Shown here: positions 16,908 to 37,077 of the stretch, in pieces | Layout of the letters: the number at the start of each line of letters is the position of its first letter | How positions within the stretch are numbered: the stretch's first letter is position 1 | Assembly (NCBI RefSeq): GCF_023101685.1 | Contig: NZ_CP082164.1 | Coordinates: forward strand, 1,922,001-1,986,000 | Origin: Bradyrhizobium sp. 186 | GTDB taxonomy: Bacteria > Pseudomonadota > Alphaproteobacteria > Rhizobiales > Xanthobacteraceae | Length of the DNA stretch: 64,000 nucleotides | Direction: 5' to 3' | The notes under the pieces: model-generated | What the model saw: the letters and a program-made list of their open reading frames with translations, nothing else | Told to the model about the DNA's origin: nothing | Database searches by the model: none | Program-made: the position numbers and the translations under genes

Positions 16908-17873
16908 TTATCTCGCCCGAGATGCTGTGGAGGCGGATTTTCCGCCGGTGCGGCCCTTGCGCACCGTATTCCAGAAATTCTCGGCCGCCCGCGTCATGCG
17001 AGCGCGCACGCGGAACAAGGAAATACTGATCGCGATATCCCAATCCTCGGCGCCCGCGCGCAGGAGCCGGCCGCTTTCGAGGTCGGCACGGACGAGGCTG
17101 AGCGGCGCCCATGTGATGCCGCGTCCCTCGCGCGCCATGTCGATCAGCAGCATGACCGGCGCGGAGAAGCTCGGAACGAGCCAGGCCGCCGGCTCCTTCG
17201 TCGCCAGGAACGACGTGACGATTCGCCCTACGCCGGAGCCGGGATGGTAGGCGAGATAAGGCAGCGGCGCTCCGGCCGCGCCTGGCAGTGCGTAGCGCGG
17301 CTTTGCCTTGCTGCGGCGTCCGCCACGTGCGGCCTTGGTGAGCGGCGCGCTGATCGGGATCAGCACGTCGGTCGAGAGCTCGATGCGCTGGAAGCGGTCC
17401 ATGTCGAGCCGGCTCACCAGTGACGGATGATGATGCGCCAGAAGGAAATGCGCCTGCGCATCCAAGAGCAGCTTTTCGCAGCCGGCGAAATTGGAGGCGA
17501 CCAGCTGCACGGCCGAGTTGGCGCGTGCGCTGTCCGAGCTCCGGATCCATTCCGGAAAGAAAGTTTGTGACAGCGCATGCGTGGCCGCGAAGGTGATGGT
17601 CTCGGCTTTCAGCCGCGCCATTTCGAGCGCTTCCTCCCGCCCGACCAGGACCCGTCGCAGCACGTCTTCGGCCACGGAACGAAAACTCTCGCCGGCCGGC
17701 GTCAGCGTGATGGTGTGTGTCGAGCGCTCGAACAGCGCCGTTCCCAGCCATTCCTCGAGCGACCTGATGCGGCGGCTCAGCGCCGGCTGGGTCACGTGCC
17801 GTCGCTCGGAGGCGCGCGAGAACCCGCCCTCCTCAGCGATGGCAAGGAAATCCTCCAGCCAAATCAGGTCCAT
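16908..17873 (-). CDS. LysR-family transcriptional regulator, divergent from the symporter/MmgE operon
   Basis: A 321-residue regulator starting at ATG 17873 with AAGGAC upstream; 35 more codons are open upstream but begin outside the conserved HTH start. The HTH spans MDLIWLEDFLAIAEEGG to about residue 62, and the effector-binding domain about 90-295. It is transcribed away from the operon starting at 17988, with a 114-bp shared intergenic region holding a T-N11-A dyad. By the usual LysR arrangement it probably controls that operon in response to a pathway metabolite. Confidence 0.88.
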   Translation of the reverse strand: MDLIWLEDFLAIAEEGGFSRASERRHVTQPALSRRIRSLEEWLGTALFERSTHTITLTPAGESFRSVAEDVLRRVLVGREEALEMARLKAETITFAATHALSQTFFPEWIRSSDSARANSAVQLVASNFAGCEKLLLDAQAHFLLAHHHPSLVSRLDMDRFQRIELSTDVLIPISAPLTKAARGGRRSKAKPRYALPGAAGAPLPYLAYHPGSGVGRIVTSFLATKEPAAWLVPSFSAPVMLLIDMAREGRGITWAPLSLVRADLESGRLLRAGAEDWDIAISISLFRVRARMTRAAENFWNTVRKGRTGGKSASTASRAR

Positions 17874-17894
17874 ATGACGTTTTGTCCTTAAATC

Positions 17895-17909
17895 ATACCG
17901 ATACGGCAT
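17895..17909. promoter_or_regulatory. Candidate LysR-binding dyad (T-N11-A)
   Basis: ATACCG-ATA-CGGCAT is an interrupted palindrome with one mismatch, and contains T (17896), 11 bases, then A (17908). It lies 22 bp upstream of the LysR start and 79 bp upstream of the symporter start, a normal place for an autoregulatory LysR box. Binding is inferred only. Confidence 0.45.
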
Positions 17910-17987
17910 TAGCGCCTGAAAGACCGCTGGTCCAATGTAAACGGCATTGAAAGACAAGAACAAAGCGCCACCACGCATGGCGCGACG

Positions 17988-19322
17988 ATGTCGTGGGAGG
18001 AAAGCAAATTGCAGGTCGCCGCAACGCCGCTATCTGAGCCCATATCGAGGCCGGTTTCCGAAGGGCGCCGCAAACCGCTCTGGCGCGAGCAGTATGTCCT
18101 GGTGGTTGCCGGCGCCGCGCTCGGCGTGCTCTTCGGCGCCCTGTTTCCGACCGTCGCCGTCGATTTCAAGCCGCTCGCCGACGCCTTCATTTCGCTAATC
18201 AAGATGACGATCGCGCCGCTGATCTTCCTGGTCGTCGTCACCGGCATCGCGCAGGTCGGTGACATGAAGGCGGTCGGCCGCATCGGGCTGAAGGCCTTCG
18301 TCTATTTCGAGGTCGTGACGACCGTCTGCCTGTTGATCAGCTTCGTCGTCGTGCGCTGGGTTCAGCCCGGGGCGGGCGTGGCGCATGCCACCGCGCAGCA
18401 GGCCGAGACCGTCGCCCGCTATTCGCAAGCGCATGTCGGATCGCTGTCGGCCTATATCCAGCACATGATCCCGGAAAGTTTTGTCGGCGCGTTCGCGAGC
18501 GGTGACGTGCTCCAGGTGCTCGTGCTTGCGCTGCTCTGCGGCATTGGTCTCCTGCTGCTTGGCGAAAAAGCAGCACCATTGCGGACCGGGATGGAGCGGG
18601 TGACCGAGTTGGTGTTCAGCGTCGTCCATGTCGTCGTGGCGCTGGCGCCGATCGGCGCCTTCGGCGCCATGGCTTTCACGGTCGCCAAGTTTGGTGCCGC
18701 CACGCTCTATGCGCTGGCGCTGCTGGTCGGCACTGCCTGGGCAATCATGGCGTTCTTCATCTTCGTCATTCTCGGCACGATCTGCCGTTTGGTCGGCATT
18801 CGCCTGATGGATTTGCTGCGGCTGTTGCGGAACGAGCTGCTGGTCGTGCTTGGCACCTCGTCGTCGGAGACCGCGATCCCCGGCATGATGGAGAAGCTGC
18901 CGAAGGCGGGCGTCGGGCGCGCGGTCGCGGGCCTGGTCATTCCCTCCGGCTATTCCTTCAATCTCGACGGCGTCGCGCTGACGCTGCCGCTCAGCACCAT
19001 GTTCGTCGCCCAGGTCTACGGCATCGAACTTTCGGCCGCGCAGCAATTGAGCCTGTTCGTCGTGATGTTGTTCACCAGCAAGGGCGCGGCCGGCGTCACC
19101 GGCGGCGCATTCGCCGCGCTCGCCGCGACCGTGATTGCCGCGGGGTTGCCGGCGGAGGGCTTGGCGCTGCTGCTCGGCATCGATCGCTTCATGTCGCTGG
19201 CGCGCGCCATCACCAACACCATCGGCAATGCGGTCGCCTCGATCGTGGTCGCGAAGTGGGATGGAGAATTCAACCGGGAGGACTGGGCTCAGTCCGCCGC
19301 TCAAATCCAGCGAGTGAAGTAA
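17988..19322 (+). CDS. Sodium/proton:dicarboxylate symporter (SDF/DAACS family, DctA/GltP-like)
   Basis: Inner-membrane secondary transporter of C4-dicarboxylates or acidic amino acids. The 444-residue protein contains the serine-rich hairpin motif GTSSSETAIPGMM and GYSFNLDGVALTL, both characteristic of the family, and about eight hydrophobic segments. It is the first gene of the rightward operon and lies 6 nt from pdxA. Since the operon encodes oxidative and hydrolytic enzymes, it may import the substrate or a carboxylate product formed in the periplasm. The start at 17988 leaves a 35-residue polar leader before the first helix, slightly long; a later start is possible. Confidence 0.88.
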   Translation: MSWEESKLQVAATPLSEPISRPVSEGRRKPLWREQYVLVVAGAALGVLFGALFPTVAVDFKPLADAFISLIKMTIAPLIFLVVVTGIAQVGDMKAVGRIGLKAFVYFEVVTTVCLLISFVVVRWVQPGAGVAHATAQQAETVARYSQAHVGSLSAYIQHMIPESFVGAFASGDVLQVLVLALLCGIGLLLLGEKAAPLRTGMERVTELVFSVVHVVVALAPIGAFGAMAFTVAKFGAATLYALALLVGTAWAIMAFFIFVILGTICRLVGIRLMDLLRLLRNELLVVLGTSSSETAIPGMMEKLPKAGVGRAVAGLVIPSGYSFNLDGVALTLPLSTMFVAQVYGIELSAAQQLSLFVVMLFTSKGAAGVTGGAFAALAATVIAAGLPAEGLALLLGIDRFMSLARAITNTIGNAVASIVVAKWDGEFNREDWAQSAAQIQRVK

Positions 19323-19328: not shown

Positions 19329-20375
19329 ATGGTTTTTAATATGGCTATCAACACCAATGAACTGCCCATCGTCGCGCTGACGCCGGGCGATTGCACCGGC
19401 GTCGGCCCCGAACAGATCGCGCGCATCCTGTCCGACGACCGGCTCGCTGACGCCGCACGTCTCGTCGTGATCGGCGATGCCCGCGTGCTCGAGATGGGCA
19501 TGGCGCATGCCGGCGTGAAGTTGAAGGTCGAGCGGATCTCCTCGCCCAATGCGGCATCCTGGAGCAGCAGTGCGGTGCAGCTCGTCGATCTCGGCAACAC
19601 CGATCCCGCGAAATGTCCAATCGGCAAGGCCAGCGCCGAATCCGGCCGGCTGACCGGCGAGACGCTGTCGCGCGCGATCGATTTCGCCAAGGCCGGCGAG
19701 GTCGACGCGATCACCTTTGCGCCGCTGAACAAGCGCGCGATGTTCGACGGCGGCTGGAAGTTTCCCGACGAGCACAGGATGTTCGCGAGCCTGCTCGGTC
19801 ACAAGACCTATTTCTCCGAGATGAACGTGCTCGACGGGCAATGGATGTCGCGCGTCACCGGGCATCAATCGCTGCGCGAAGCGCTGGACGGCATCAATCC
19901 GGCCAGCATCACCGACTCGATCGAGCTGGTCGACCGCATGATGCGCAGAACCGGCGTCGCCAAGCCGCGCATCGCGGTGGCCGCGCTCAACCCGCATGCG
20001 GGCGAGGGTGGCCTGTTCGGCCGCGACGAGATCGAGATGATCCGGCCGACCGTGGAAGCCGCCGCAAAGACCGGGATTGCCTGCACCGGGCCGTATCCTG
20101 CCGACACCGTTTATGTGCGGGCGTTCGCCGGCGAGTTCGACAGCGTGGTGGCGATGTATCACGACCAGGGCCAGATCGCGACCAAGCTGCGCGGTTTCAA
20201 CCGCGGCGTCACCGTCACCGCCGGGCTCGAGACCGTCTTTACGACACCGTCACACGGCACGGCGTTCGATATTGTTGGCCAAGGCCTGGCGAAGACCGGG
20301 GCGCTCGAGAGCGCGGTTCGCCTCGCGGCGCAATTGGTATCTATGAAGGTCAAGGAGGCATCCTATGCACACTGA
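19329..20375 (+). CDS. PdxA-family 4-hydroxythreonine-4-phosphate dehydrogenase homologue (probably catabolic)
   Basis: NAD-dependent, metal-dependent beta-hydroxyacid oxidative decarboxylase fold, 348 residues. NPHAGEGGLFGRDE and YHDQGQIATKLRGF are PdxA motifs with metal-binding His and Asp. The usual GHTEF element is altered here (EHRMFASLLGH), as in PdxA2-like paralogues. Such paralogues act in catabolism of four-carbon sugar acids, and TphB of terephthalate degradation also belongs to this family. The operon context (transporters, MmgE/PrpD) favours a catabolic role over pyridoxal phosphate synthesis. The ATG at 19329 has AAGGA very close upstream; ATG 19341 is an alternative. It overlaps the next gene by 11 bp. 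Confidence 0.82.
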   Translation: MVFNMAINTNELPIVALTPGDCTGVGPEQIARILSDDRLADAARLVVIGDARVLEMGMAHAGVKLKVERISSPNAASWSSSAVQLVDLGNTDPAKCPIGKASAESGRLTGETLSRAIDFAKAGEVDAITFAPLNKRAMFDGGWKFPDEHRMFASLLGHKTYFSEMNVLDGQWMSRVTGHQSLREALDGINPASITDSIELVDRMMRRTGVAKPRIAVAALNPHAGEGGLFGRDEIEMIRPTVEAAAKTGIACTGPYPADTVYVRAFAGEFDSVVAMYHDQGQIATKLRGFNRGVTVTAGLETVFTTPSHGTAFDIVGQGLAKTGALESAVRLAAQLVSMKVKEASYAH

Positions 20376-21819
20376 TCGCAGAACCCTGCTCCAGGCGGCG
20401 GCCGCGCTGCCGCTCGCCGCCGTCGGCACTAATGGCGCCTTCGCGCAAGTCCCGGCCGCGGCGCCTGCAGCCGCGCCGCCCAAGGACGTCACGCGCGCGC
20501 TCGCACATTATCTGGTGACCGCGGGCTACGACGACCTGCCGGCCAATGTCCGCAAGGAGGGCGTCCGCACGCTTCTGAACTGGGTCGGCGTCGCGATCGG
20601 CGGATCGCATCATCAGACGGTCGACATCGCGGTCGCGGCCCTCGGCCCATTCTCGGGCCCGCACCAGGCGTCTCTGTTCGGGCGCCGCGAGCGATTCGAC
20701 ATCATGAACGCGGCCTTCATCAACGGCGTGTCGAGCCACATCTTCGACTATGACGACACCCATCTGAAGACGATCATTCATCCCGCGGGCCCCGTGGCCT
20801 CGGCCATTCTCGCGCTGTCGGAACTGCAGCCGGTCTCCGGCAAAGAGTTCCTGAACGCGCTGGTGCTCGGCGTCGAAACCGAGTGCAGAATCGGCAACTC
20901 CGTCTACCCAAACCACTACGATGTCGGCTGGCACATCACCGGCACGGCCGGCGTGTTCGGCTCTGCCGCCGCCGTCGGCAAGCTGTTGAAGCTCAACGAG
21001 CAGCAGATGATCTGGGCGCTTGGTCTTGCCGCGTCGCAGCCGGTGGGCCTGCGCGAATCCTTCGGCTCGATGAACAAGAGCTTCAATCCGGGCCGCGCTG
21101 CCTCCAGCGGCATCTTCGCGGCCATCCTCGCCTCGAAGAACTTCACCTCGTCCGACTCGATGATCGAGGCCAAGCGCGGCTGGGCCAACACGATCAGCAC
21201 CAAGCAGGACTACAACGAGATCCTCGGCGACCTCGGCAAACGCTATGAGGCAGCGCTGAACACCTACAAGCCGTTCGCCTGCGGCATCGTCATGCATCCG
21301 GCGATCGATGCCGCGATCCAGCTCCGCAACGAGAACAAGGTGACCGCGGACCAGATCGAGCGCGTCGACCTCAAGGTCCATCCGCTGGTGCTGGAGCTGA
21401 CCGGCAAGAAGACGCCGAGCCAAGGGCTCGAAGGCAAATTCAGCATCTACCACGCGGTCGCGGCTGCGATCGTCGAGGGCGCCGGCGGCGAGAAGCAGTT
21501 CAGCGATCGCGCCGTGACCGATCCGACCATCGTCGCGCTGCGCGGCAAGGTGAATCCGGTCATCACTGCCGGCATCAAGCCGGAGCAGGTCGATCTCACG
21601 ATCGTGCTCAAGGACGGGCGCAAGCTCAATCGTTACATCGAACACGCCATCGGCAGCGTCGAGGTGCCGATGACCGACAAGCAGCTCGAGACCAAGTTCT
21701 CCGATCTTGCCGAAGGCATCATTCCCGCTGCGACGATCCGGCATGTGATGGACGCCTGCTGGAATGTCGAGAACCTGCCGAACGCTGCCGACATCGCCAA
21801 GATGTCGGTCGCGGCCTGA
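20365..21819 (+). CDS. MmgE/PrpD family protein with twin-arginine signal peptide
   Basis: Lyase/isomerase of the 2-methylcitrate dehydratase family, which also includes cis-aconitate decarboxylase and iminodisuccinate epimerase. The 484 residues begin with a Tat-type signal, DRRTLLQAAAALPLAA, and a probable cleavage after GAFA. Family cytoplasmic members lack such a leader. The all-alpha domain covers about residues 45-290 (IFDYDDTHLKTIIHPAGP carries the conserved Asp/His cluster), followed by the alpha/beta lid domain. It begins 11 bp before the end of pdxA and is 17 nt before a second MmgE/PrpD gene, so the operon encodes a pair, possibly a hetero-oligomer. Substrate unknown. Confidence 0.85.
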   Translation: MHTDRRTLLQAAAALPLAAVGTNGAFAQVPAAAPAAAPPKDVTRALAHYLVTAGYDDLPANVRKEGVRTLLNWVGVAIGGSHHQTVDIAVAALGPFSGPHQASLFGRRERFDIMNAAFINGVSSHIFDYDDTHLKTIIHPAGPVASAILALSELQPVSGKEFLNALVLGVETECRIGNSVYPNHYDVGWHITGTAGVFGSAAAVGKLLKLNEQQMIWALGLAASQPVGLRESFGSMNKSFNPGRAASSGIFAAILASKNFTSSDSMIEAKRGWANTISTKQDYNEILGDLGKRYEAALNTYKPFACGIVMHPAIDAAIQLRNENKVTADQIERVDLKVHPLVLELTGKKTPSQGLEGKFSIYHAVAAAIVEGAGGEKQFSDRAVTDPTIVALRGKVNPVITAGIKPEQVDLTIVLKDGRKLNRYIEHAIGSVEVPMTDKQLETKFSDLAEGIIPAATIRHVMDACWNVENLPNAADIAKMSVAA

Positions 21820-21836
21820 CCGCCAGGGAGAGCAGC

Positions 21837-23273
21837 ATGCCGTCACGCCGCCATTTCCTGCAATCCGCCGGCTCGATCGCCGCCCTGGCCGCGACCGGTG
21901 GCCGCGCGGCCCTGGCGGCGGGCCCGGGCGTGACGGAGCGGCTCGCCCGCTACATGGTCGCCGCGCGCGACCAGGAGCTGCCGGCGCAGGTCCTGCTCGA
22001 ATGCAAGCATCGCATTCTCGATACGCTCGGAGCGATGGTGTCTGGCTCGCGCATGCGGCCGGGCGAGATGGCGCTGAAATATGTTCGCACGCTCGGCGGC
22101 GACGCGCAGGCCTCCGTGGTCGGCTCCGATTTCCGGACCACGGCGGTCAACGCGGCGCTGGCCAATGCCATGTGCGCCCATGCCGACGAGACCGATGATT
22201 TCGAGCCCGTCACCAAGGCGCATCCGGGGTCCGCGGTCGTACCGGCCGCGCTCGCCCTCGGCGAACGGGAGCATCGCAGCGGCCAGGACGTCATTCGCGC
22301 CGTCGCGCTCGGCTACGATTTGACCTGTCGCCTGCTGATGGCGCTGGGCCCAGATCTCGTGCGCGGCTCGCATCGGAGCGCCGAGGGAACGTCGTCGACA
22401 TTCGGTGCGCTCGGCGCCGCCGCCTCGCTGGCGCAGCTCGACGAGACCGGGATGCGTTATGCGATCTCCTATTCGGCGCAGCAGGTGTCCGGCCTCTGGA
22501 GCTGGGTCAAGGACAAGGACCATATCGAGAAGGCGTTCGATTTCGCCGGCATGGGCGCCCGCAACGGCGTGATGGCCGTCGACATGGTGAAGAACGGCCT
22601 GACCGGCGTCGACGATGTGCTCGACGGCACGCATAATCTCTTCATCGCGCTGTCGTCCGATCCGAAGCCCGAGGAGATGGTGAAGGATCTCGGCAGCCGC
22701 TTCTACGTCACGGAGACGGCGATCAAGACCTTTTCGGTCGGCTATCCCATCCAGTCGCCGCTGGATGCGACCCTGACGCTGCGCAAGCAGCATGGCCTGA
22801 CCCCCGACAACGTGCGCAGCATCCTGGTCAAGCTTCCGACCGACGCGATGGGGATCGTGGGCGAGAGCGCGATGCCCGACGTCAACTGCCAGCACCTTGT
22901 CGCGGTCGCGCTGGTCAAGGGGGCCGTTTCGTTCAACGACAGCCACGATGTCGCGCTGATGCACGATCCCAAGATACTCGAACAGCGCGTCAAGGTGACG
23001 CTGGCCGGCGACAGGGCGCTGATGGATCCGGCTGCGCCGCGTGGCGCTGTCGTCGAGGTGACATTGACCGATGGCAAGAAGGTGGAGCACTTCACGAAGT
23101 ATCCGCCGGGCACCAAGGAAAACCCGCTGAGCACGGAAGCGGTGGCGGCGAAGACGCGGGACCTGATTGCGCCGGTGCTGGGCCGCGACAGGGCCGAGAA
23201 GCTGATCGAGCAAGTCCGCAATCTCGAACGGCTTGACGACGTCGGAAAGTTAGGGCCATTGCTGACCGCGTGA
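21837..23273 (+). CDS. Second MmgE/PrpD family protein with twin-arginine signal peptide
   Basis: A 478-residue paralogue of the preceding gene product. The leader PSRRHFLQSAGSIAALAAT is close to the SRRxFLK consensus, with likely cleavage near ALAAG. HADETDDFEPVTKAHPGSAVVPAALALGER is the conserved family active-site region, carrying Asp/His residues equivalent to those in the first copy (quoted in parts: HADETDDFEP and KAHPGSAV). Start follows GGGAGAGCAGC. Two exported MmgE/PrpD proteins in tandem suggest either a two-subunit enzyme or two consecutive steps on one carboxylate in the periplasm. No catalytic assignment can be made from sequence. Confidence 0.85.
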   Translation: MPSRRHFLQSAGSIAALAATGGRAALAAGPGVTERLARYMVAARDQELPAQVLLECKHRILDTLGAMVSGSRMRPGEMALKYVRTLGGDAQASVVGSDFRTTAVNAALANAMCAHADETDDFEPVTKAHPGSAVVPAALALGEREHRSGQDVIRAVALGYDLTCRLLMALGPDLVRGSHRSAEGTSSTFGALGAAASLAQLDETGMRYAISYSAQQVSGLWSWVKDKDHIEKAFDFAGMGARNGVMAVDMVKNGLTGVDDVLDGTHNLFIALSSDPKPEEMVKDLGSRFYVTETAIKTFSVGYPIQSPLDATLTLRKQHGLTPDNVRSILVKLPTDAMGIVGESAMPDVNCQHLVAVALVKGAVSFNDSHDVALMHDPKILEQRVKVTLAGDRALMDPAAPRGAVVEVTLTDGKKVEHFTKYPPGTKENPLSTEAVAAKTRDLIAPVLGRDRAEKLIEQVRNLERLDDVGKLGPLLTA

Positions 23274-23313
23274 TGAATCAACCAATAACAAGACAAACAT
23301 CGAGGAAATGCCC

Positions 23314-24285
23314 ATGCGCGGGATATTGCGCCGCTCCTTTCTTGCCGCCTGCGCGGCTGTTCTGTTCTGCGGCGCCGCGGTAGCGCAGGACTATCCCTCC
23401 CGTCCGGTCAAGATCATCGTGCCGTTCCCGGCCGGGGGCTCCAACGACATCATCACCCGCATCGTCGCGCAGAAGCTGGCCGAACGGTGCGGGCAGACCT
23501 TCATCGTGGAAAATCGCGGCGGCGCCGGCGGCAATATCGGCGCCGAGACGGTCGCGAGCGCGGAAGCTGACGGCTACACGCTGCTGCTGACCGCGCCGCC
23601 GCCGCTGACCATCAACGGCTCCCTCTACAAGACGCTGCCGTTCGATCCGGCCAGGGCGTTCGCGCCGGTGGCGCTGATCGCGTCGGTGCCGATCATCCTG
23701 GTCGTGAATCCGTCGGTGCCCGCGAAGAACGTGGGCGAGCTGATCGCACTGGCCAAAGCCAAACCCGGCTCGCTGAATTTCGGCTCGTCCGGCATCGGTT
23801 CGACCAACCACCTTGCGGGCGAGCTGCTCAAGAGCACGGCCGGCATCGATATCGTCCATGTTCCTTATCGCGGCGCGGCGCCGGCGATGAACGACCTGCT
23901 TGCCGGGCAGATCCCTTTCATGTTCGACAACATTCCCGCGGTGCTGCCCCAGGTTCAAGGCAAGGCGATCAATGCGATCGCGGTCGCCGGTGCGAAGCGC
24001 GCAGACGCCTTGCCGGATGTGCCAACGGTCGCCGAGACCGTTCCCGGTTTCGAGGCCTCGTCCTGGTTCGGGCTGGTGGCGCCGGGCAAGACACCCGCGC
24101 CTGCGCTTGCGAAGCTGCGCAGCGAGCTCGAGGTCATCCTGAAGATGCCTGACGTCAAGAAGAGGCTCGCCGAGCTTGGCGCCGAGCCCGGCACCGTATT
24201 CGGCGAGGCTTTCGGCCAGTTCCTTGCCGAGGAGACGACGAAGTGGGGCAAGATCATTCAGGCCTCGGGCGCCACGGTAGACTAG
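23314..24285 (+). CDS. Bug-family (TctC) tripartite tricarboxylate transporter substrate-binding protein
   Basis: Periplasmic binding protein of 323 residues from ATG 23314, which has GAGGAAAT 8 nt upstream; the ATG six bases earlier sits too close to that site. A Sec signal ends near AVAQ. DYPSRPVKIIVPFPAGGSND, then VENRGGAGGNIG and VPYRGAAPAMNDLLAGQ are hallmark Bug motifs. TctA and TctB membrane partners are absent from the window, as for most Bug proteins, which may use distant permeases or act in sensing. Ligands in this family are carboxylates such as citrate, aromatic acids or nicotinate; the operon context agrees with a carboxylate. Confidence 0.9.
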   Translation: MRGILRRSFLAACAAVLFCGAAVAQDYPSRPVKIIVPFPAGGSNDIITRIVAQKLAERCGQTFIVENRGGAGGNIGAETVASAEADGYTLLLTAPPPLTINGSLYKTLPFDPARAFAPVALIASVPIILVVNPSVPAKNVGELIALAKAKPGSLNFGSSGIGSTNHLAGELLKSTAGIDIVHVPYRGAAPAMNDLLAGQIPFMFDNIPAVLPQVQGKAINAIAVAGAKRADALPDVPTVAETVPGFEASSWFGLVAPGKTPAPALAKLRSELEVILKMPDVKKRLAELGAEPGTVFGEAFGQFLAEETTKWGKIIQASGATVD

Positions 24286-24301
24286 GCAGGAAGACAGCGT
24301 C

Positions 24302-25090
24302 ATGGATTTGAATCTGGGCGGCAAGGTTGCCGTCGTCACCGGCGGCAGCATCGGCATCGGACGGGCGATTGCCGCCGAACTCGCGCGCGAGCAGGCGCAT
24401 GTCGTGATCGTCGCGCGCGACGCCGAACGGCTTGCGGCAGCCGCGCAGGAGATGTCGCGCGAGACCGGCCGGCGCGTGATCGCCTGCGCCGGCGACATGA
24501 CCAAGCCCGACGATATCGAACGGGCAATGAACGCCGCGCGCGAGACCTTCGGTCGCATCGATATCCTCGTCAACAATGCCGGGGCGTCGCCCATGGGCCG
24601 GATCACCGAGACGCCCGATGCGACCTGGGCCAAATCGATTGAACTGAAGCTGCTCGGCTATGTGCGCTGCGCGCGCAGCGTCTTGCCGGCGATGCGCGAT
24701 CGCCGCTGGGGCCGCGTCATCAACATCATCGGCCGCAGCGGCCATCAGCCGCGCGCGGCGTATATGGCTGGCGGCGCGGTCAACGCGGCGCTGCTCAACT
24801 TCACCTTGGCGCTTGCGGAGGAGTGCGCGCCCGACAATGTGCTCGTCACTGGCGTCAATCCCGGGCCGGTGCAGACCGACCGTTGGGACAGCCTGGTCTC
24901 GCAGGGCGCGACCATTGCGGGCCAGGACCGCGGGACGGCAAACGCCGCGGCGATCGCCTCGGTGCCGCTCGGGCGTGTCGGGCAGCCGCACGAAGTGTCC
25001 GGCCTTGTTGCCTTCCTCTGTTCAGACCGCGCGTCTTTCATTACTGGAACCTGCATCAATGTCGATGGCGGTGGGACGAGGTGTATCTAA
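24302..25090 (+). CDS. Short-chain dehydrogenase/reductase family protein with atypical active site
   Basis: Rossmann-fold protein of 262 residues. The cofactor motif TGGSIGIG (13-20) and NNAG (91-94) are intact, so NAD(P) binding is expected. At the active site Tyr154 is present in RAAYMAGGA, but the Lys expected four residues later is Gly158, and the Ser expected 13 residues earlier is Asn141. Thus two of the classical Ser-Tyr-Lys residues are missing. The same divergent motif occurs in some SDR subfamilies, so the enzyme may use another mechanism or a different reaction. Its stop overlaps the start of the next gene by one base (TAATG), showing tight coupling. Confidence 0.82.
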   Translation: MDLNLGGKVAVVTGGSIGIGRAIAAELAREQAHVVIVARDAERLAAAAQEMSRETGRRVIACAGDMTKPDDIERAMNAARETFGRIDILVNNAGASPMGRITETPDATWAKSIELKLLGYVRCARSVLPAMRDRRWGRVINIIGRSGHQPRAAYMAGGAVNAALLNFTLALAEECAPDNVLVTGVNPGPVQTDRWDSLVSQGATIAGQDRGTANAAAIASVPLGRVGQPHEVSGLVAFLCSDRASFITGTCINVDGGGTRCI

Positions 25091-25908
25091 TGGCTAGCGA
25101 ACTGCGGAAGATCGGTGTCAGCGACGATTGCGAGCTTGCGGTTCGCATCGACGACTATCTGTTGCCATGGGACATCAAGCCGCCGGTCGTGATGCTGCAC
25201 GGGCTCGCCGAAAGCGGCGAAGCGTTCCGGCGCTGGGTGCCGTATTTCGCTACGCATCATCTCGTGGTACGCCCTGATTTGCGCGGCTATGGCGATTCGA
25301 CGCCAATGCAGGGCGATTACGTCTATCGCTTCGCCGGCCTGGGCGACGACGTCATCCGGCTGCTGGACGCGTTGAAGCTCGACCGCGTCTTCCTGGTCGG
25401 CGGCAAGATCGGCGGGACGCTGGCGATGCATCTGGCGGCAAACTATCCGGATCGCGTGATCGCGCTTGCCGCGGTCGGTGCGCCGGCTTCGCTCACCTCG
25501 TTCTCCGAGCGGGCACCGACCTGGCGCAAGCAGATTCGCGAGCAGGGCGTCGAGGCCTGGGTGCGCGAGACCACGACCGGCCGGCTCGGCTCGTCGCTGC
25601 CGCTGGCGGTGCTCGACTGGTGGATCAGGCTGATGTCGAAGACGCAGGCCTCGACGCTCGAGGCCTTCCTGAAGATGGTGCCGACGGTCGACGTCATACC
25701 CGAATTGCCGCGGATCAAGCGGCCGACGCTCGTCATCACCACGACCGGCTCGGGGCTCGGCAGCGTCGATTCGGTGAAGGCGTGGCAAGAGACGATTCCG
25801 GGCTCGACGCTCGAAGTGCTGCCCGGGGATTCCTATCACGTCGCCGCAACGGACCCCGACGTCTGCGCGAGGTTGGTCCGGACGTTCTTCGATCGGCTCA
25901 AAACATGA
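25090..25908 (+). CDS. Alpha/beta-hydrolase-fold protein with Lys in place of the nucleophile
   Basis: A 272-residue cytoplasmic protein of the alpha/beta hydrolase fold. The start is the ATG overlapping the SDR stop. VVMLHGLAESGEAF supplies the oxyanion loop and RPDLRGYGDS the usual strand-5 region. The nucleophile elbow reads LVGGKIGG, where the canonical form is GxSxG, so position 106 is Lys rather than Ser, Cys or Asp. His250 in GDSYHVAA is at the normal catalytic place. Either the protein is a non-hydrolytic member or it uses unusual chemistry. It lies between the SDR and a c-type heme protein in the operon. Confidence 0.8.
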   Translation: MASELRKIGVSDDCELAVRIDDYLLPWDIKPPVVMLHGLAESGEAFRRWVPYFATHHLVVRPDLRGYGDSTPMQGDYVYRFAGLGDDVIRLLDALKLDRVFLVGGKIGGTLAMHLAANYPDRVIALAAVGAPASLTSFSERAPTWRKQIREQGVEAWVRETTTGRLGSSLPLAVLDWWIRLMSKTQASTLEAFLKMVPTVDVIPELPRIKRPTLVITTTGSGLGSVDSVKAWQETIPGSTLEVLPGDSYHVAATDPDVCARLVRTFFDRLKT

Positions 25909-25972
25909 GAGACGAGTCCGAATAAGGCCCACAAAGAGGCTCGGACGAAAACAAAAACAAATGGGAGGAACG

Positions 25973-28132
25973 ATGAGCTTGAAGCAAATACTGGCCGGCT
26001 GTCTCGGCGCGACGGCGCTGTTGCATGCCGGCGCAACGATGGCGGCGAACGTCGAGATATCCGCGAGCGACATCGGCGGACAGGTGATCAGCGACAAGGG
26101 AGCCGAGGCCGGGGTCTGGGTGATCGCCGAGACGAAGGACCTGCCGACCAAATACGCGAAGGTGGTGGTGACCGACGATCAGGGCCGGTTCGTCATCCCG
26201 GATCTTCCCGCCGCCAACTACAAGGTCTGGGTACGCGGCTATGGCCTGCAGGACACGGCACAACAGGATGCCCGTCCCGGCAAGGCGCTGGACTTCAAGG
26301 CCGCCGCCGCCTCGCTCAAAGAAGACGCGCAGAACTATCCGGGCATGTATTGGTACTCCATGCTCGACATCCCCAAGCCCGAGGAATTTCCGGGCACTGG
26401 CGACAAGGGCAACAAGATGCCCGAGACCATGAAGTCGCAGGCCCAGTGGGTCGATACGGTCAAGAACATGTGCCAGTCCTGCCACGCGCTCGGGACGCGC
26501 GGAATTCGCGAGATCCCGAAGGTGTTCACCGACGGCTATGATTCCCACACCGCCTGGGCGATCCGCACCCAGGCCGGCCAGGCTCAGGAATACATGGCGA
26601 CGGTGCTGGCCAGCATGGGCCCGGAGAAGGTCTACGACCTCTTCTCGAAATGGACCGATCGCATCGCGGCGGGCGAACTGCCTTTCGACAAGCCCGAGCG
26701 GCCCAAGGGCATCGAGCGCAATGTCGTTTACACGATGTGGGACTGGGCGGCACCGACGCGTTATCAGCACGATGCGATCTCGACCGACAAGCGCAATCCG
26801 CGCCTCAACGCCAACGGCCTGATCTACGGATCGTCGGAGGAGAGCTCCGATCTCGTGCCGACCCTCGACCCAGTGAAGAACATCGCGGGCACCATCAAGC
26901 ATCCTTATCTCGATCCGAATACGCCGTCGTCGACCGACGCGCCGCGGGGCCCGTCGGCCTATTGGGGTGACGAGCCGATCTGGGATGGTCACACCAGCAT
27001 TCACAACGTCATGATGGACGAGTTGGGCAGGGTCTGGTTCACCGCGCGCCTGCGCCCGCCCGCCAATCCGGACTATTGCAAGCAGGGCTCGGAGCTGCCG
27101 TCGGCAAAGATGGCGCCGCAGGCCACCTCGTTGCGCCAATTGTCGCGCTTCGATCCCGCGACAGGTAAGTGGGACCTGATCAACACCTGCTTCACGACCC
27201 ATCACCTCTATTTCGACGATGATGCCAACCAGACACTGTGGACCAGCTCCGGCGGTCCCGGGCTCGGCGGCGGCCTGGTCGGCTGGCTCAACACGAAGCA
27301 GTACCGCGAGACCCACGACGACGTGAAATCGCAGGGCTGGACGCCATTGATCATCGACACCAACGGCAACGGCAAGCGCGACGCCTATGTCGAGCACAAG
27401 GACCCCGTCGATCCGACCAAGGATAAGCGCATCGCGGCATCCTTCTACGGCATCATGCCGAGCCCGGTCGACGACACGATCTGGGGCCAGGCGATGGATC
27501 GTGGCTTCTCGCGCATCGACCAGCCCGGCTACATCGTTCGCGTGATGCCCGGGCCGGATCCCGCAAACACCGCGCTGTCCGAAGTGTATCAGCCGCCAGA
27601 GGGCACGTTTGGTCCGCGCGGTCTCGACATTGGGCTTGATGGCGTAGTGTGGACGGTCTTGTCCAGCGGACATCTCGCGAGCTTCGACCGCAAGCTCTGC
27701 AAGGGGCCGCTGAACGGGCCGGCGACGGCGGACGGCAAGCAGTGTCCGGAAGGATGGAAGACCTGGCGCATGCCTGGACCGCAGTTCAGGGGGCTCGATG
27801 CCAGCGGCAGCGCCAACCACGCCTATTACGTCTGGGTGGACCGCTACAACACGTTCGGACTCGGCGCCAACGTGCCGATCGCGAGCGCCAACGGTAGCGA
27901 GTCGCTGCTCGCGCTGGTCAATGGCCAGTTGGTGAATCTGCGCAATCCGTATCCGCTCGGCTTCTTCACCAAGAACGTCGACGGCCGTATCGACGATCCC
28001 AATACGGGCTGGAAAGGTCGCGGGCTGTGGAGCACGACGGGAACACGTGCGAGCTTCCACGGGGAGGGTGGCAAGGAGGCCTCGCCCAAGGTCTACAAGG
28101 TGCAGATGCGGCCGGATCCATTGGCGCATTGA
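25973..28132 (+). CDS. Periplasmic c-type heme protein with N-terminal carboxypeptidase-regulatory-like domain and beta-propeller-like region
   Basis: Exported 719-residue protein. ATG 25973 is preceded by GGGAGGAA, and a Sec signal ends near ATMA. Residues about 25-90 look like a carboxypeptidase-regulatory beta sandwich (VVVTDDQGRFVIPDLPA). A single heme-binding CQSCH follows at about residue 165. The C-terminal 450 residues contain repeating strand patterns of a Vgb/streptogramin-lyase-like propeller (MMDELGRVWFTAR, LDIGLDGVVWTVL). The order suggests a periplasmic redox enzyme or electron acceptor. Co-transcription with Tat-exported enzymes suggests that it removes electrons from, or senses, the pathway in the periplasm. 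Exact reaction unknown. Confidence 0.75.
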   Translation: MSLKQILAGCLGATALLHAGATMAANVEISASDIGGQVISDKGAEAGVWVIAETKDLPTKYAKVVVTDDQGRFVIPDLPAANYKVWVRGYGLQDTAQQDARPGKALDFKAAAASLKEDAQNYPGMYWYSMLDIPKPEEFPGTGDKGNKMPETMKSQAQWVDTVKNMCQSCHALGTRGIREIPKVFTDGYDSHTAWAIRTQAGQAQEYMATVLASMGPEKVYDLFSKWTDRIAAGELPFDKPERPKGIERNVVYTMWDWAAPTRYQHDAISTDKRNPRLNANGLIYGSSEESSDLVPTLDPVKNIAGTIKHPYLDPNTPSSTDAPRGPSAYWGDEPIWDGHTSIHNVMMDELGRVWFTARLRPPANPDYCKQGSELPSAKMAPQATSLRQLSRFDPATGKWDLINTCFTTHHLYFDDDANQTLWTSSGGPGLGGGLVGWLNTKQYRETHDDVKSQGWTPLIIDTNGNGKRDAYVEHKDPVDPTKDKRIAASFYGIMPSPVDDTIWGQAMDRGFSRIDQPGYIVRVMPGPDPANTALSEVYQPPEGTFGPRGLDIGLDGVVWTVLSSGHLASFDRKLCKGPLNGPATADGKQCPEGWKTWRMPGPQFRGLDASGSANHAYYVWVDRYNTFGLGANVPIASANGSESLLALVNGQLVNLRNPYPLGFFTKNVDGRIDDPNTGWKGRGLWSTTGTRASFHGEGGKEASPKVYKVQMRPDPLAH

Positions 28133-28191
28133 GTGTTTCGTCTTAAGAATAGCACCGCTCCAAAGGGGCGGCCAAGCCAGGGAATAGGACC

Positions 28192-28983
28192 ATGACAAAG
28201 ACCTCTCGACGTGACGTGCTCACTGCCGCAGCGGCAATGACCGCGGCGGGCCTCGCCGACACGGCACCGGCCGCGGCGCAGGCCGGGCCGAAGCCGATCT
28301 TCGCGGTGCCGATGGTTTCGATCCCGATCGTCGGCGAGACAAGCGTGTTCCAGGTACGCCGCATCTACTGCATCGGGCGCAACTACGCCGCGCACGCGAT
28401 CGAGCGCGGCTCGGATCCGAACCGCGAGCCGCCGTTCTTCTTCCAGAAGCCGACCGATGCGATCCAGAACGTCGCAGTCGGCGAGGTCGCCGATCATCCC
28501 TATCCGTCGCTGACCAAGAACTATCATCACGAGGTCGAGCTGGTCGCCGCGCTGAAATCCGGCGGCAGCAACATCCCGGCCGAGAAGGCGCTGGACCATG
28601 TTTACGGCTACGCGCTCGGCCTCGACATGACGCGGCGCGATCTCCAGAACGGCATGGCCGCAGAGAAGAAGCCATGGGAGATCGGCAAGAGTTTTGACCA
28701 CGCCGCGGTGATCGGCCCGATCCACCCGGCAAGCAAGACCGGTCATTTCGACAAGGGCGCCATTTCTCTGGCGATCAACGGGACCGTCAAGCAGAATTCG
28801 GATCTCAGCAAGATGATCTGGAGCGTGGCCGAGCAGATCGCAAAACTGTCGGAGGCCTTCGAGCTGAAGGCCGGCGACATCATCTATTCCGGCACGCCGG
28901 AAAATGTCGGACCGGTCGTGAAGGGTGACGTGCTGCTCTGCAAGCTTGAGGGCTTGCCGGATATGTCGATCAAGATCGTGTAA
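28192..28983 (+). CDS. Fumarylacetoacetate hydrolase (FAH) family protein with twin-arginine signal
   Basis: A 263-residue member of the FAH superfamily, most like fumarylpyruvate hydrolases: RRIYCIGRNYAAHA, PPFFFQKPTDA and HHEVELVAAL. The divalent-metal ligands Glu114, Glu116 and Asp145 (in GLDMTRRDLQ) are present, so hydrolase or decarboxylase activity is plausible. Unlike ordinary cytoplasmic FAH enzymes it begins with TSRRDVLTAAAAMTAAG and an AAQAG cleavage region, a Tat signal. It is 59 nt after the heme protein and ends the coherent operon. A secreted FAH next to two secreted MmgE/PrpD proteins points to carboxylate chemistry outside the cytoplasm. Confidence 0.85.
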   Translation: MTKTSRRDVLTAAAAMTAAGLADTAPAAAQAGPKPIFAVPMVSIPIVGETSVFQVRRIYCIGRNYAAHAIERGSDPNREPPFFFQKPTDAIQNVAVGEVADHPYPSLTKNYHHEVELVAALKSGGSNIPAEKALDHVYGYALGLDMTRRDLQNGMAAEKKPWEIGKSFDHAAVIGPIHPASKTGHFDKGAISLAINGTVKQNSDLSKMIWSVAEQIAKLSEAFELKAGDIIYSGTPENVGPVVKGDVLLCKLEGLPDMSIKIV

Positions 28984-29001
28984 CGGCGGCAGCCCTCTTC
29001 G

Positions 29002-29144
29002 CCTCTCCCCGCTTGCGGGGAGAGGCCGGATTGCATCGAGGATGCGATCCGGGTGAGGGGGAGTCTCCGCGAGTCCAGTTCTCACCGAGGTTGCGGATGC
29101 AGCCACTCACCTCAACCCTCTCCCCATAAGAACGGGGCGAGGGA
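29002..29144. repeat. Dispersed palindromic repeat with strong hairpins
   Basis: The left end is a perfect 11-bp stem, CCTCTCCCCGC/GCGGGGAGAGG with a TT loop (29002-29025). A second imperfect stem around gattgcatcgaggatgcgatc follows, and related words in inverse order (ctcacctcaaccctctcccc, then ggggcgaggg) end the element. Such ctctccccgc elements are abundant between Bradyrhizobium genes (general knowledge). It may stop transcripts of the upstream operon. Confidence 0.7.
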
Positions 29145-29184
29145 GCGCACCGCCAGCTTGTCGGCGGGTCGTCTAATCCTGGAG

Positions 29185-29976
29185 GTGCTGCGGCACGGCT
29201 TGATCGCCACGTTGGGTTTGGTTCTCGTCATGATTGGTGCTCTCGCCGTGAAAGCCGAGGGGCCGAGCGACATCGCGCCAACGGGGCCGTTGCGCGTGGC
29301 GGTGGCCGTCGGCCCCGCCGCCTCGGCCTTCTGGACCACGCGCGATCCGGCGACGGGAAAGCCGCGCGGGGTCACCGTAGAGCTTGCCAAGGCCGCCGCG
29401 AACAAGCTGCACGTGCCGCTGCAACTCGTCGAATACCAGAGCTCTGACGAGATCGCCGCAGCCGGCGGCAAGGACCTCTGGGATATCTCCTTCATGCCGG
29501 CAGACGTCAAGCGCGAGCAGTTTGTCGACCAGGGGCCCGCCTACGTCGCATATATGAGTGGCTATCTCGTGCGCGCGGGCTCGGACATCCGCTCCGTTGC
29601 GGATGTCGATCGCGCCGGACTACGGGTCGGCTGCATCGAGGGGACATCGACGTCACGCACGGTCGAGAAGTCGCTGAGGCAGGCGAAGCTGACAAAGTTC
29701 GTGAAGCCGGAAGAGGCGGCCGAATTGATCGGCAACGGCCAGCTTGATGCGCTCGCGATGGGCATGGGGGCTTTGGGAGACCTTTCGCGAAAGCTGCCCG
29801 GAACCAAGGTGCTGGACGAGGTGATCCAGTCGACCGGCGTGGTCGTGGTTGTTCCCAAGGGCAAGGCCGTGGCGAAGGCTTGGGCCGCTCATTTCCTCGA
29901 TGAGGCCAAGGCGGACGGCACGGTACGGCGCGCGCTCGACAGCAACGGATTCACCAGCGACAAGGTCGCGCCGTAG
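29185..29976 (+). CDS. Orphan periplasmic substrate-binding protein, amino-acid ABC type (SBP_bac_3)
   Basis: A protein of about 263 residues with a Sec signal (LIATLGLVLVMIGALAVKAEG). The mature part follows SBP_bac_3: GPLRVAVAVGPAASAFW, then GKPRGVTVELAKAAANKL and GCIEGTSTSRTVEKSL. The start is uncertain: GTG 29185 gives a charged leader, while GGAGG lies at 29181-29185 and would better serve TTG 29200. The open frame reaches back to 29053, but that part is repeat DNA and is discarded. No permease or ATPase adjoins it, so it may serve distant transporters or sensing. The repeat separates it from the FAH operon. Confidence 0.8.
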   Translation: MLRHGLIATLGLVLVMIGALAVKAEGPSDIAPTGPLRVAVAVGPAASAFWTTRDPATGKPRGVTVELAKAAANKLHVPLQLVEYQSSDEIAAAGGKDLWDISFMPADVKREQFVDQGPAYVAYMSGYLVRAGSDIRSVADVDRAGLRVGCIEGTSTSRTVEKSLRQAKLTKFVKPEEAAELIGNGQLDALAMGMGALGDLSRKLPGTKVLDEVIQSTGVVVVVPKGKAVAKAWAAHFLDEAKADGTVRRALDSNGFTSDKVAP

Positions 29977-30553: not shown

Positions 30554-30563
30554 GGCTACGGCT

Positions 30564-31307
30564 CTAAGCCGCGGTGGTCTTCGGCCGTAGCCGATCGACC
30601 GTCCGCGCGATCAGCGCGGCCACTTCGTTGACCTTCGGCCCGATACGGAATTCGGGTCCGGCGACGACGACTGAGAGCCGGCGGTCGCCGATCGGCAGCG
30701 GGATCGCGGCCCCCGCAAGGTCGCGGCTGTAGTCGCCGAAGCTCTGGCAATAGCCGCGCTGAATCGAATTGCGCAGCTCCGCTTCCACCGCCTCGATGCT
30801 GATCGGCGTCGACGGGCCGTACTGCTTGAACTCGATCTTGCGATAAACGGAATCGCGTTCTTCCGGCGAATATTGCAGCAGCAGCGCGCGGCCACTTGCC
30901 GTGGCATGGATCGGCACACGGTGGCCGATGGTGGCGAAATAGCGGATCGCGGCCTGGGACTCGACGACGTCGATGAAAACGGCCATCACGCCGGCCGGCG
31001 CCACGATCGAGGCGGTCTCGCCGGTCTCGGTGGAGAGATCGGCGACCAGCGTATGCGTCCACGGCGGTAGCGGCTCGACCTCCGAGATCATCCGCGCCAT
31101 CGCGAGCCAGCGCGGCGTCGGATAGAAGCCGGCGCGCGGGCGAGGCTCATAGAGGTAGCCCTTCTCCGACAGCGTCGCGAGCAGGTTGAAGGTCGACGAA
31201 CGCGGCCAGCCGAAATGATCGGCGATCTCCGCAAGCGTCGCCGGCTTCCTCGTTTGCGCGAAGAATTCCATGATCTCCAGGACGTTTGCGGCTTGGCGAA
31301 CGATCAT
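30564..31307 (-). CDS. IclR-family transcriptional regulator
   Basis: A 247-residue regulator: an N-terminal winged HTH (residues about 5-65, LAEIADHFGWPRSSTFNLLATL) and a C-terminal IclR effector domain with IRYFATIGHRVPIHATASGRALL. It is encoded 34 nt downstream of the CitE-like lyase gene on the same strand, so it may be part of the minus-strand catabolic transcript. IclR proteins usually control adjacent carboxylate or aromatic catabolism; the likely targets are the divergent promoters around 33920-34120. Confidence 0.9.
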   Translation of the reverse strand: MIVRQAANVLEIMEFFAQTRKPATLAEIADHFGWPRSSTFNLLATLSEKGYLYEPRPRAGFYPTPRWLAMARMISEVEPLPPWTHTLVADLSTETGETASIVAPAGVMAVFIDVVESQAAIRYFATIGHRVPIHATASGRALLLQYSPEERDSVYRKIEFKQYGPSTPISIEAVEAELRNSIQRGYCQSFGDYSRDLAGAAIPLPIGDRRLSVVVAGPEFRIGPKVNEVAALIARTVDRLRPKTTAA

Positions 31308-31341: not shown

Positions 31342-32193
31342 CTACGGCTGGCCGAGGATTTTCTTCGCGGCGCGAAGATGCGGCTTGTCGATCATCATGC
31401 CGTCGAGGCGTAGCGTGCCGGAGTTCGGATTACTTGCGAACGCCGCGATGACTTTTTCCGCCCATGTGCGCTCGGCCTCGGTCGGTTCGAACGCGGCGTT
31501 GACGACGTCGACGTGCTTGGGATGGATCAGCGCCTTCGCGGAGAATCCATCACGTCGCGCCGCGCGCGTTTCCTGTTCGAGCCCCACCAGATTGTCGATG
31601 TCGGTATAGACGGTGTCGATCGGCGCGACCTCGGCTGCGGCGGCCGCCATCAGGCAGAGATCGCGCGCGAGGCGATAGGGGCTGTGGAACACACCGCCCG
31701 ACGCCTTTTCGGTCGCGCCAAGCGACGCCGAGAGGTCTTCCGCGCCCCACATCAGGCCGGCGAGGCGAGGGGAAGAGTCCTTGTAGGTGCCGAGGCCGAA
31801 GATCGAGCCTGCGGTTTCGGTGGCGACGCAGACGATGCGCGTCGCACCGACCGTGATTCCTGCTGCCGCCTCGAAGGCTTCGAGCCAGGTCGCGACCTGC
31901 CGCACGTCGTCGCCGCCGCGCGATTTCGGTAGCACGATGCCGTCGGGCGCGCCGGGCATCACTGCGGCCAGATCGGCGAGCGTCATGCCGGTGTCGAGCG
32001 CATTGACGCGCACATAGAGCTGGTGCGGACCGCGTCGGCCCTTCAGCATCGCGAGCGTCAGCGTGCGGGCCTCCGCCTTCTTATCGGTGACAACGGAGTC
32101 CTCGAGATCGATGATCAGCGCGTCGGCGTTGCCTTCGCTCGCCTTTTCGAATTTGCGCGGGGAATCGCCTGGCACGAACAGCATCGAGCGCAT
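31342..32193 (-). CDS. CoA ester lyase, CitE/HpcH-HpaI family (citramalyl/malyl-CoA lyase-like)
   Basis: A 283-residue TIM-barrel lyase that cleaves a beta-hydroxyacyl-CoA to acetyl- or propionyl-CoA and an oxoacid. The start MRSMLFVPGDSPRKFEKA is the conserved family opening; its ATG overlaps the upstream MaoC stop (TGATG), so a longer frame to 32232 is not used. DALIIDLEDSV, IVLPKSRGGDDV and the metal region ETAGSIFGLG with GLMWGAEDLSA are intact. The combination with MaoC dehydratase and CoA-transferase resembles the itaconate pathway (citramalyl-CoA lyase) or the methylmalyl-CoA route. Cytoplasmic. Confidence 0.88.
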   Translation of the reverse strand: MRSMLFVPGDSPRKFEKASEGNADALIIDLEDSVVTDKKAEARTLTLAMLKGRRGPHQLYVRVNALDTGMTLADLAAVMPGAPDGIVLPKSRGGDDVRQVATWLEAFEAAAGITVGATRIVCVATETAGSIFGLGTYKDSSPRLAGLMWGAEDLSASLGATEKASGGVFHSPYRLARDLCLMAAAAAEVAPIDTVYTDIDNLVGLEQETRAARRDGFSAKALIHPKHVDVVNAAFEPTEAERTWAEKVIAAFASNPNSGTLRLDGMMIDKPHLRAAKKILGQP

Positions 32194-35151: not shown

Positions 35152-35180
35152 TCCGACATCGAAAAAGGGAGGCGCGAGAA

Positions 35181-35735: not shown

Positions 35736-35747
35736 CGGCAGGCATCC

Positions 35748-37037: not shown

Positions 37038-37077
37038 GCTCGGGGCCCTCGCGGCTCCCAATAAGGAGATCAAGAAC

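Follow-up and report, generated by a model that had tools for sequence, protein, structure and literature searches.

The characterised proteins of the MmgE/PrpD family include IDS epimerase, cis-aconitate decarboxylase, 2-methylcitrate dehydratase, and (S)-(R)-methylsuccinate isomerase (PMC12290011); their active-site residues and shared enolate mechanism have been described (PMC7347537 and PMC12290011), and homologues were found in 19.2% of species, most of them uncharacterised (PMC12290011). In the itaconate/methylsuccinate cluster of Pseudomonas/Cupriavidus (ict, ich, ccl, mcd, and mmgE), the MmgE protein isomerises methylsuccinate as the free acid and not as a CoA ester (PMC12290011). The accessible text of PMC12290011 described none of the characterised members as exported, and our literature search found no paper on exported MmgE/PrpD proteins; MmgE/PrpD appeared merely as a neighbour gene in the accessible text of PMC10924467, and that of PMC2275737 mentioned none of MmgE, PrpD, and fumarylacetoacetate. 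The present analysis concerned a 64,000-bp stretch of DNA (the window; contig NZ_CP082164.1, positions 1,922,001 to 1,986,000) from the 10.77-Mb genome of Bradyrhizobium sp. 186, in which two MmgE/PrpD proteins (Mm1 and Mm2, the first and the second; two of six such genes in this genome) and an FAH-family hydrolase (FAH), all encoded in one operon, each carried a twin-arginine leader.

Mm1 (20365..21819, + strand; leader DRRTLLQ; PF03972 4e-78 and PF19305 7e-39) and Mm2 (21837..23273, + strand; leader SRRHFLQ; PF03972 1e-52) shared the Pfam domains and catalytic residues of the characterised enzymes, and 1,4-dicarboxylate chemistry is expected (PMC12290011). Their N- and C-terminal domains scored 262 and 134 bits in Mm1 and 179 and 99 bits in Mm2 (cut-offs 32.1), which placed both proteins in the family; they differed from the characterised members in their conserved leader, and Mm2 additionally lacked the catalytic Tyr. 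FAH (28192..28983, + strand; leader SRRDVLT; PF01557 4e-47, 161 bits versus a cut-off of 23.9) belonged to the FAH superfamily and shared PF01557 with the fumarylpyruvate/acylpyruvate hydrolases (6j5y, 4maq, and FAHD1), 6j5y and 4maq being its closest PDB relatives, but it differed from them in its twin-arginine leader.

With a probability of roughly 0.5, Mm1 and Mm2 would constitute an exported isomerase/lyase stage for 1,4-dicarboxylates that feeds a symporter, and FAH would be part of a separate CoA-route neighbourhood. The twin-arginine translocation (Tat) system would carry folded Mm1 and Mm2 across the inner membrane; once outside, they would isomerise, epimerise, or cleave a substituted 1,4-dicarboxylate prior to uptake, and the product would enter via the adjacent DctA-like symporter SDF (17988..19322, + strand; PF00375 6e-99), in Bradyrhizobium sp. 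186 perhaps also via a TRAP carrier. FAH, likewise placed outside the inner membrane by its predicted leader, would be a further exported hydrolase of a CoA-dependent route composed of transferase, hydratase, lyase, and acyl-CoA dehydrogenase. Some Bradyrhizobium have LysR–SDF–PdxA–Mm1–Mm2 ahead of Bug–SDR–hydrolase–(heme)–FAH, and these joined blocks adjoin the CoA route, which would put the exported steps next to the cytoplasmic ones. The substrate class is suggested by the MmgE/PrpD family and the transporters, and a branched C4–C5 dicarboxylate by the CoA genes; a methylsuccinate isomerase that acts on free acids would fit an Mm step ahead of CoA activation. SDF matched its Pfam model and missed the cut-off of the NCBIfam DctA subfamily model (484.5 versus 513 bits). 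Isomerisation of an acid before uptake is known from the periplasmic aconitate isomerase, to which the proposal for Mm1 and Mm2 bears a likeness; that enzyme is presumably of a protein family different from MmgE/PrpD, and the literature search found no paper on it.

The three leaders displayed the features of Tat substrates, namely an N-terminal Arg–Arg (RR) motif, an uncharged h-region, and an AxA-like end, and the host genome encoded TatC. A TATFIND-like rule, coded by ourselves, was passed by 5 of the 42 listed open reading frames (ORFs) of the window: Mm1, Mm2, FAH, the solute-binding protein Bug (LRRSFLAA), and SDF, the last being read as a false positive because it is a membrane symporter. 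Among the best database matches listed, the RR motif stood near the start of 119/120 Mm1 and 119/120 FAH homologues, and the stricter TATFIND-like rule was passed by 118/120 and 118/120, respectively. The Mm1 leader was found in 78 of the 80 fetched loci (L numbers below; 48 from alpha-, 29 from beta-, and 1 from gammaproteobacteria, plus two unclassed records), the exceptions being L028, which began at a contig edge, and L061, which was truncated. R5 and R6 were kept at 98% in the 81-row Mm1 alignment, in which mean identity was 45% over positions 1–40 and 81% from position 46 on. RR leaders were also present in 24/24 Mm2 loci and 13/13 FAH loci. The leaders DRRTLLQ, SRRHFLQ, and SRRDVLT, pointed out in a sequence-only reading of this DNA, were thus present and conserved, more firmly than had been stated there. 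Since Tat-type leaders were conserved on Mm1, Mm2, and FAH, export in folded form appears to be the best reading of them.

Relatives of the three proteins were inspected as well. Twenty of 20 hand-picked Bradyrhizobium paralogues (at most 41% identity to Mm1; judged by eye) had no leader, and neither had the other four MmgE/PrpD genes of the same genome (L002, L003, L004, and L006). At 51–54% identity to Mm1, 7/7 relatives were leaderless at their likely ATG starts, one of them (L271) showing an RR stretch upstream of the start with no ATG ahead of it in the displayed part; at 59–60%, 2/2 carried a leader. Four same-family relatives of Mm2 comprised three leaderless ones at 43–44% and a leadered one at 40% (L276), and L236, near Mm2 at 60%, also carried a leader. 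As for FAH, five matches at 67% or more in 249 genomes aligned from residue 1–6, and most of the listed matches at 57% or less had alignments starting no earlier than residue 25, with a few starting at 7–16. A second exported MmgE/PrpD lineage was observed near Mm2 in Bradyrhizobium (at least 15 rows at 41–44%); all four members read (L234, L235, L237, and L238) had leaders such as MKRRDFLGLTAAA, and this lineage lay 103–109 kb from Mm1 in six genomes (G178, G002, G084, G122, G187, and G100). The Bug leader contained RR followed by a hydrophobic stretch, with RR in 10/10 orthologues shown, which makes Bug a possible fourth Tat substrate encoded in the operon.

The pairing of Mm1 with Mm2 was the best evidence of a shared role outside the cytoplasm. 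Among 195 Bradyrhizobium genomes searched (G numbers), Mm2 (at least 81% identity) adjoined Mm1 in 20/20 genomes holding it, three copies being partial or split. Over 24 loci both gene orders were encountered: (i) Mm1–Mm2 in Bradyrhizobium, Tardiphaga, and Pseudomonas and (ii) Mm2–Mm1 in Burkholderiaceae loci. This adjacency, kept in different orders by proteins of separate clades, argues for a shared outside role. Active-site residues were retained in 79–81 of 81 Mm1 rows (H125, D128, H139, Y185, H190, K238, and K302) and in 23–25 of 25 Mm2 rows (H179 and the invariant H115, E118, H129, K232, and K297), so that both proteins had the catalytic His and the dicarboxylate-binding residues of MmgE/PrpD. 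When aligned with IDS epimerase (2hp3), H139/Y185 of Mm1 corresponded to H99/Y145 and Mm2 kept H129; the Tyr serving as second base was found in 79/81 Mm1 rows and replaced by Leu in 25/25 Mm2 rows, and Mm2 had Q306 where Mm1 had H311. Because these residues were near-invariant but Mm2 was without the Tyr and the later His, Mm1 and Mm2 look active, with different reactions. The Mm2 copies of L240, L241, and L242 (G193, G086, and G043) were in two frames or cut short, and L242 had no SDR match.

FAH seemed to belong to a different and, in Bradyrhizobium, more widespread neighbourhood than Mm1–Mm2. FAH orthologues (E 1e-100 or better) were present in 146/195 genomes, the alignment starting no later than residue 5 in 144 of these (RR itself not being read there), and Mm1 (at least 74%) was present in 32/195. 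The gene for a CitE-type lyase (Ccl; 31342..32232, – strand) was found at 84% or more in 95/195, a count that excluded a 79% partial copy with a stop in G065. FAH was also held by 66 of the Ccl genomes, and the two genes lay within 6 kb of each other in 63 of these 66, 48 of the 63 being without Mm1 there; Mm1 shared its locus with FAH in 17/32 genomes and with Ccl in 15/32. Because FAH mostly accompanied Ccl, and often in the absence of Mm1, a shared operon is not proof of one pathway. An acyl-CoA dehydrogenase was near FAH–Ccl in all eight FAH-bearing loci examined (L250 to L256 and L259); FAH in L194 and L195 had no informative neighbours. A Ccl/Ich link to Mm1 considered in the betaproteobacterium L076 was given little weight, the distance being about 8.6 kb and other genes intervening.

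The CoA route of the window resembled the itaconate/methylsuccinate route, and the likeness is one of resemblance only. Its components were (i) Ccl, with RipC/Ccl as the best model (NF038242, 179 bits versus a cut-off of 375), (ii) a MaoC-type hydratase (Ich; 32193..32645, – strand), with RipB/Ich as the best model (NF038241, 130 bits versus 340), (iii) a CaiB-type CoA-transferase (32690..33955, – strand) matching succinate/glutarate and mesaconate models (NF052585, 223 bits versus 750), and (iv) an acyl-CoA dehydrogenase (37003..38244, + strand), with three acyl-CoA dehydrogenase domains over cut-off and every NCBIfam equivalog below it (best 246 versus 640). Together with MmgE, the hydratase, lyase, CoA-transferase, and acyl-CoA dehydrogenase of the known cluster were thus all represented within 20365–38244. 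Compared with the Pseudomonas/Cupriavidus cluster, the window had scores below the cut-offs, its set spanned two operons with an MmgE that was leadered for export and encoded in the separate one, and it included FAH, which was not named in the accessible text of PMC12290011. An IclR-type regulator (30564..31307, – strand; NCBIfam PcaR/PcaU and IclR-type matches below cut-off) accompanied the route, as did a dicarboxylate-type TRAP transporter, DctP, DctQ, and DctM (34123..37037, + strand; NF037995 103 bits versus 50, DctQ PF04290 100 versus 28, and TIGR00786 300.5 versus 268). The region 55995–58247 encoded an acyl-CoA synthetase that scored above its NCBIfam cut-off and a uracil phosphoribosyltransferase (57615–58247); the two directly adjoined FAH–Ccl–Ich–acyl-CoA dehydrogenase in L250, L252, L254, L255, and L256, and lay about 15 kb off in the window, with flagellar genes in between (FlgE-like at 51264–52529 and FlgK-like at 53283–55058).

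The operon, entirely on the + strand, ran SDF–PdxA–Mm1–Mm2–Bug–SDR–alpha/beta hydrolase–heme protein–FAH and probably ended with a family-3 solute-binding protein gene (SBP3; 29053..29976, + strand; PF00497 7e-11). The end of PdxA overlapped the start of Mm1 and the end of SDR that of the hydrolase, and the remaining gaps up to FAH were 6–59 bp. SDF and PdxA were located just upstream of 20365..28983, the interval named in the sequence-only reading, whose ORFs lay where it had put them and whose family assignments agreed with Pfam. The other members were a PdxA-family dehydrogenase (19329..20375, + strand; PF04166 5e-87; PDB relatives 4jqp, 2hi1, and 6e85), a Bug/TctC solute-binding protein (23308..24285, + strand; PF03401 5e-75; closest PDB 8hka, a terephthalate-binding protein), an SDR oxidoreductase (24302..25090, + strand; PF00106/PF13561) and an alpha/beta hydrolase (25090..25908, + strand; PF00561 2e-27, with PcaDC/PcaD models matching below cut-off), both with no leader seen, and the heme protein (25961..28132, + strand). 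The LysR regulator LysR2 (16908..17978, – strand), whose real start is probably about 100 bases further in, has homologues that adjoined SDF in Bradyrhizobium loci, and it travelled with SDF–PdxA–Mm1.

The full gene order, the conservation of which had been named in the sequence-only reading as a check that could refute it, was found in 7 of the 80 loci (flanks reaching 10 kb or the end of the contig), all of them Bradyrhizobium (L016, L017, L018, L020, L024, L025, and L029), and in none outside this genus. SDF–PdxA–Mm1 occurred together in 16/80, again all Bradyrhizobium, and no PdxA match was seen outside Bradyrhizobium in the fetched loci. Partial versions were also observed: the heme gene was not seen in L013, L015, and L019, nor Bug–SDR–hydrolase in L014 and L027; in L031 the heme gene was followed by an RR-leadered MBL-fold gene, and FAH had no match; G008 and G014 (L251 and L255) had Bug–SDR–hydrolase–FAH with neither LysR2–SDF–PdxA–Mm1–Mm2 nor the heme gene; FAH adjoined LysR1 in L252 and L254; and G042 (L180) harbored a heme–FAH–SBP3 block without Mm1 and Mm2. 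Since the blocks occurred separately among Bradyrhizobium loci, the locus was composed of at least three joined blocks, and the genes other than Mm1–Mm2 were separable add-ons to this pair.

The exported MmgE/PrpD proteins did not form one clade in the row set that included the leaderless relatives at 51–54% and 43–44%: well-supported branches forced three changes, and an approximately unbiased (AU) test rejected a single clade (p 0.000789), the choice of this row set having followed inspection of the first trees, and long branches meeting in it (tool warning). Two changes were needed in trees without the close leaderless relatives; the first tree used 23 of the 24 paralogues offered (L002 gave no match). 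Change counts alone do not separate gain from loss; given that both sides have leaderless relatives, a leader gain on the Mm1 branch apart from that of Mm2 would be the simplest reading. We raise, tentatively, a larger proposal: in Bradyrhizobium, Tardiphaga, Burkholderiaceae, and Pseudomonas, two distantly related MmgE/PrpD enzymes would have become exported independently and later been joined, so as to convert branched dicarboxylates as free acids in two steps beyond the inner membrane; in Bradyrhizobium these steps would be linked to an itaconate-like CoA route and an exported FAH, giving a split-compartment pathway from families known from the cytoplasm.

Several observations weighed against an exported Mm1–Mm2 stage and its links to FAH and the CoA genes. 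The leaders are evidence for export at the level of motifs. In G193, G086, and G043 Mm2 was present in split or truncated form, and in G202 no copy was found, so that it appears dispensable in these four genomes; 12/32 Bradyrhizobium genomes with Mm1 had no Mm2 match at all, and a full-length Mm2 neighbour was missing in many. Mm1 stood mostly alone outside Bradyrhizobium, and within this genus its locus was without FAH in 15/32 genomes and without Ccl in 17/32, some of which may be hidden by contig ends (G166). Ccl, Ich, and the CoA-transferase scored far below the NCBIfam equivalog cut-offs, so that the cut-offs did not assign them to the itaconate cluster, and the substrates of Bug and SBP3 may be different. 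One origin of the leader was not rejected by three other row sets (AU p 0.159, 0.237, and 0.0545). Tat-like leaders were not enriched near Mm1, being found in 8/202 genes within 1.5 kb and 22/553 beyond 4 kb (p 1), a count made in loci without PdxA in which the gene caller missed some genes; a general clustering of Tat-leadered enzymes round Mm1 was therefore rejected for these loci.

The sequence-only reading had Mm1, Mm2, and FAH act on a shared substrate at a shared location, with the heme protein as possible electron outlet. Such a dedicated periplasmic pathway, in which the three enzymes would work sequentially on one substrate, would accord with the conservation of all three leaders, with the short gaps of the operon, and with the full order in 7/80 loci, but FAH orthologues outnumbered Mm1 (146 versus 32 genomes) and had Ccl/Ich-like CoA genes as steady partners (63/66), the heme gene was missing from 6/17 loci with Mm1 and FAH, and none of the RR-leadered enzymes was a redox enzyme, so that we consider it unlikely. 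Export as the best reading of the three leaders, and the occurrence of Mm1 and Mm2 as a pair in different orders and classes, were the parts of that interpretation that gained support; one substrate for all three was weakened. Relic or inefficient leaders, with Mm1, Mm2, and FAH working in the cytoplasm like their relatives, would agree with the accessible text of PMC12290011, in which characterised members were not described as exported and the terms signal peptide, periplasm, secreted, extracellular, and twin-arginine were absent; RR kept at 98% within an otherwise fast-changing leader, its presence in 78/78 untruncated Mm1 loci, and the occurrence of leaders on separate branches of the family render this highly improbable.

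Two further alternatives retain export and change its purpose. The exported MmgE might act outside the cell, detoxifying or salvaging unusual dicarboxylates and lactones from plants or fungi, with a host-dependent partner, which would be FAH in this strain, a LigI-like lactonase in Tardiphaga and other Bradyrhizobium, and an MBL-fold lactonase-like protein in Methylobacterium. LigI-like genes, each with an RR leader, lay beside Mm1 in five genomes (L088/L205 of one strain, L199, L204, L048, and L051); the proteins began with MLRRD(L/V)LATMAGLGA or MHRRD(I/V)LAAMASLGL and had 2-pyrone-4,6-dicarboxylate hydrolase as closest PDB relative, the L199 copy matching 4-sulfomuconolactone hydrolase below cut-off. 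RR-leadered MBL-fold genes were found in L031 and, lactonase-like and 1.4–2 kb from Mm1, in Methylobacterium L046 and L047. These loci were few, however, and Tat-leadered neighbours were not in excess, although the LigI-like genes of L088, L048, and L051 escaped that count; we hold this explanation to be possible and doubtful. In the other alternative, Mm1 and Mm2 with PdxA would form a C4 acid-sugar pathway in which the MmgE pair supplies the acid oxidised by PdxA. The 16/80 loci with SDF–PdxA–Mm1, a D-threonate 4-phosphate dehydrogenase among the PDB relatives of PdxA, and the gene set of L191 (below) point that way; the operon encoded no SBD_N/NBD_C-type kinase, and the restriction of PdxA to Bradyrhizobium among the fetched loci also speaks against it, which leaves it very unlikely. 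As a separate observation, an extra Amidohydro_2 protein with an RR leader (RRDVMQLAAAG and RREVIQLAAAG, respectively) was encoded near Mm1–SDF in L204 (4945–6117) and L205 (14773–16026), the Amidohydro_2 assignment being that of the L204 copy, which had no NCBIfam match.

The proposed exported isomerase/lyase stage bears on annotation. A conserved exported MmgE/PrpD branch with a steady partner is a strong functional clue, pointing to enzymes that act beyond the cytoplasm on acids in free form and need neither CoA nor NAD(P). Were the proposal true, common soil and plant bacteria would isomerise or cleave acids before uptake, and the label 2-methylcitrate dehydratase PrpD, carried by many of the 120 listed Mm1 homologues (one source), would indicate the wrong compartment.

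The heme protein had a signal peptide start (MSLKQILAG, with no RR) and one CQSCH motif, which was single in 120/120 homologues among the matches listed, in keeping with its description as a secreted single-heme protein in the sequence-only reading. As regards the putative propeller named there, Pfam gave a sub-threshold CarboxypepD_reg-like start and a weak cytochrome c match only, and no convincing relative was found in the PDB (best E 0.44). RR was present in 6/10 loci and 12/120 listed homologues, so a Tat leader was not a steady trait of this protein. Long matches at 78% or more were found in 16/195 Bradyrhizobium genomes. Its proposed role as electron outlet was rejected: Mm1, Mm2, and FAH are not of redox families, so none of the three is a redox partner that could pass electrons to the heme protein, and the heme gene was optional, missing from some Mm1–FAH loci and present without Mm1 in L180. 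Heme homologues at about 50% occurred in other settings. In L191 (11755–16731), one at about 47% lay beside Bug, PdxA, Fe-ADH, an SBD_N/NBD_C sugar-acid kinase-like gene, and an FAD oxidase, possibly a C4 acid-sugar route, and Bug and PdxA accompanied that of L192 too.

Two regions of the window further upstream contained (i) a gene for an SBP_bac_8 solute-binding protein (4165–5514), whose leader held RR (LSRRTLLKGAAAVAGAAAG) and behind which lay two permease-like genes, and (ii) a gene for a molybdopterin-binding subunit of xanthine-dehydrogenase type (8647–11394), which together with the next genes bordered the locus where it was empty, in L251, L252, and L254.

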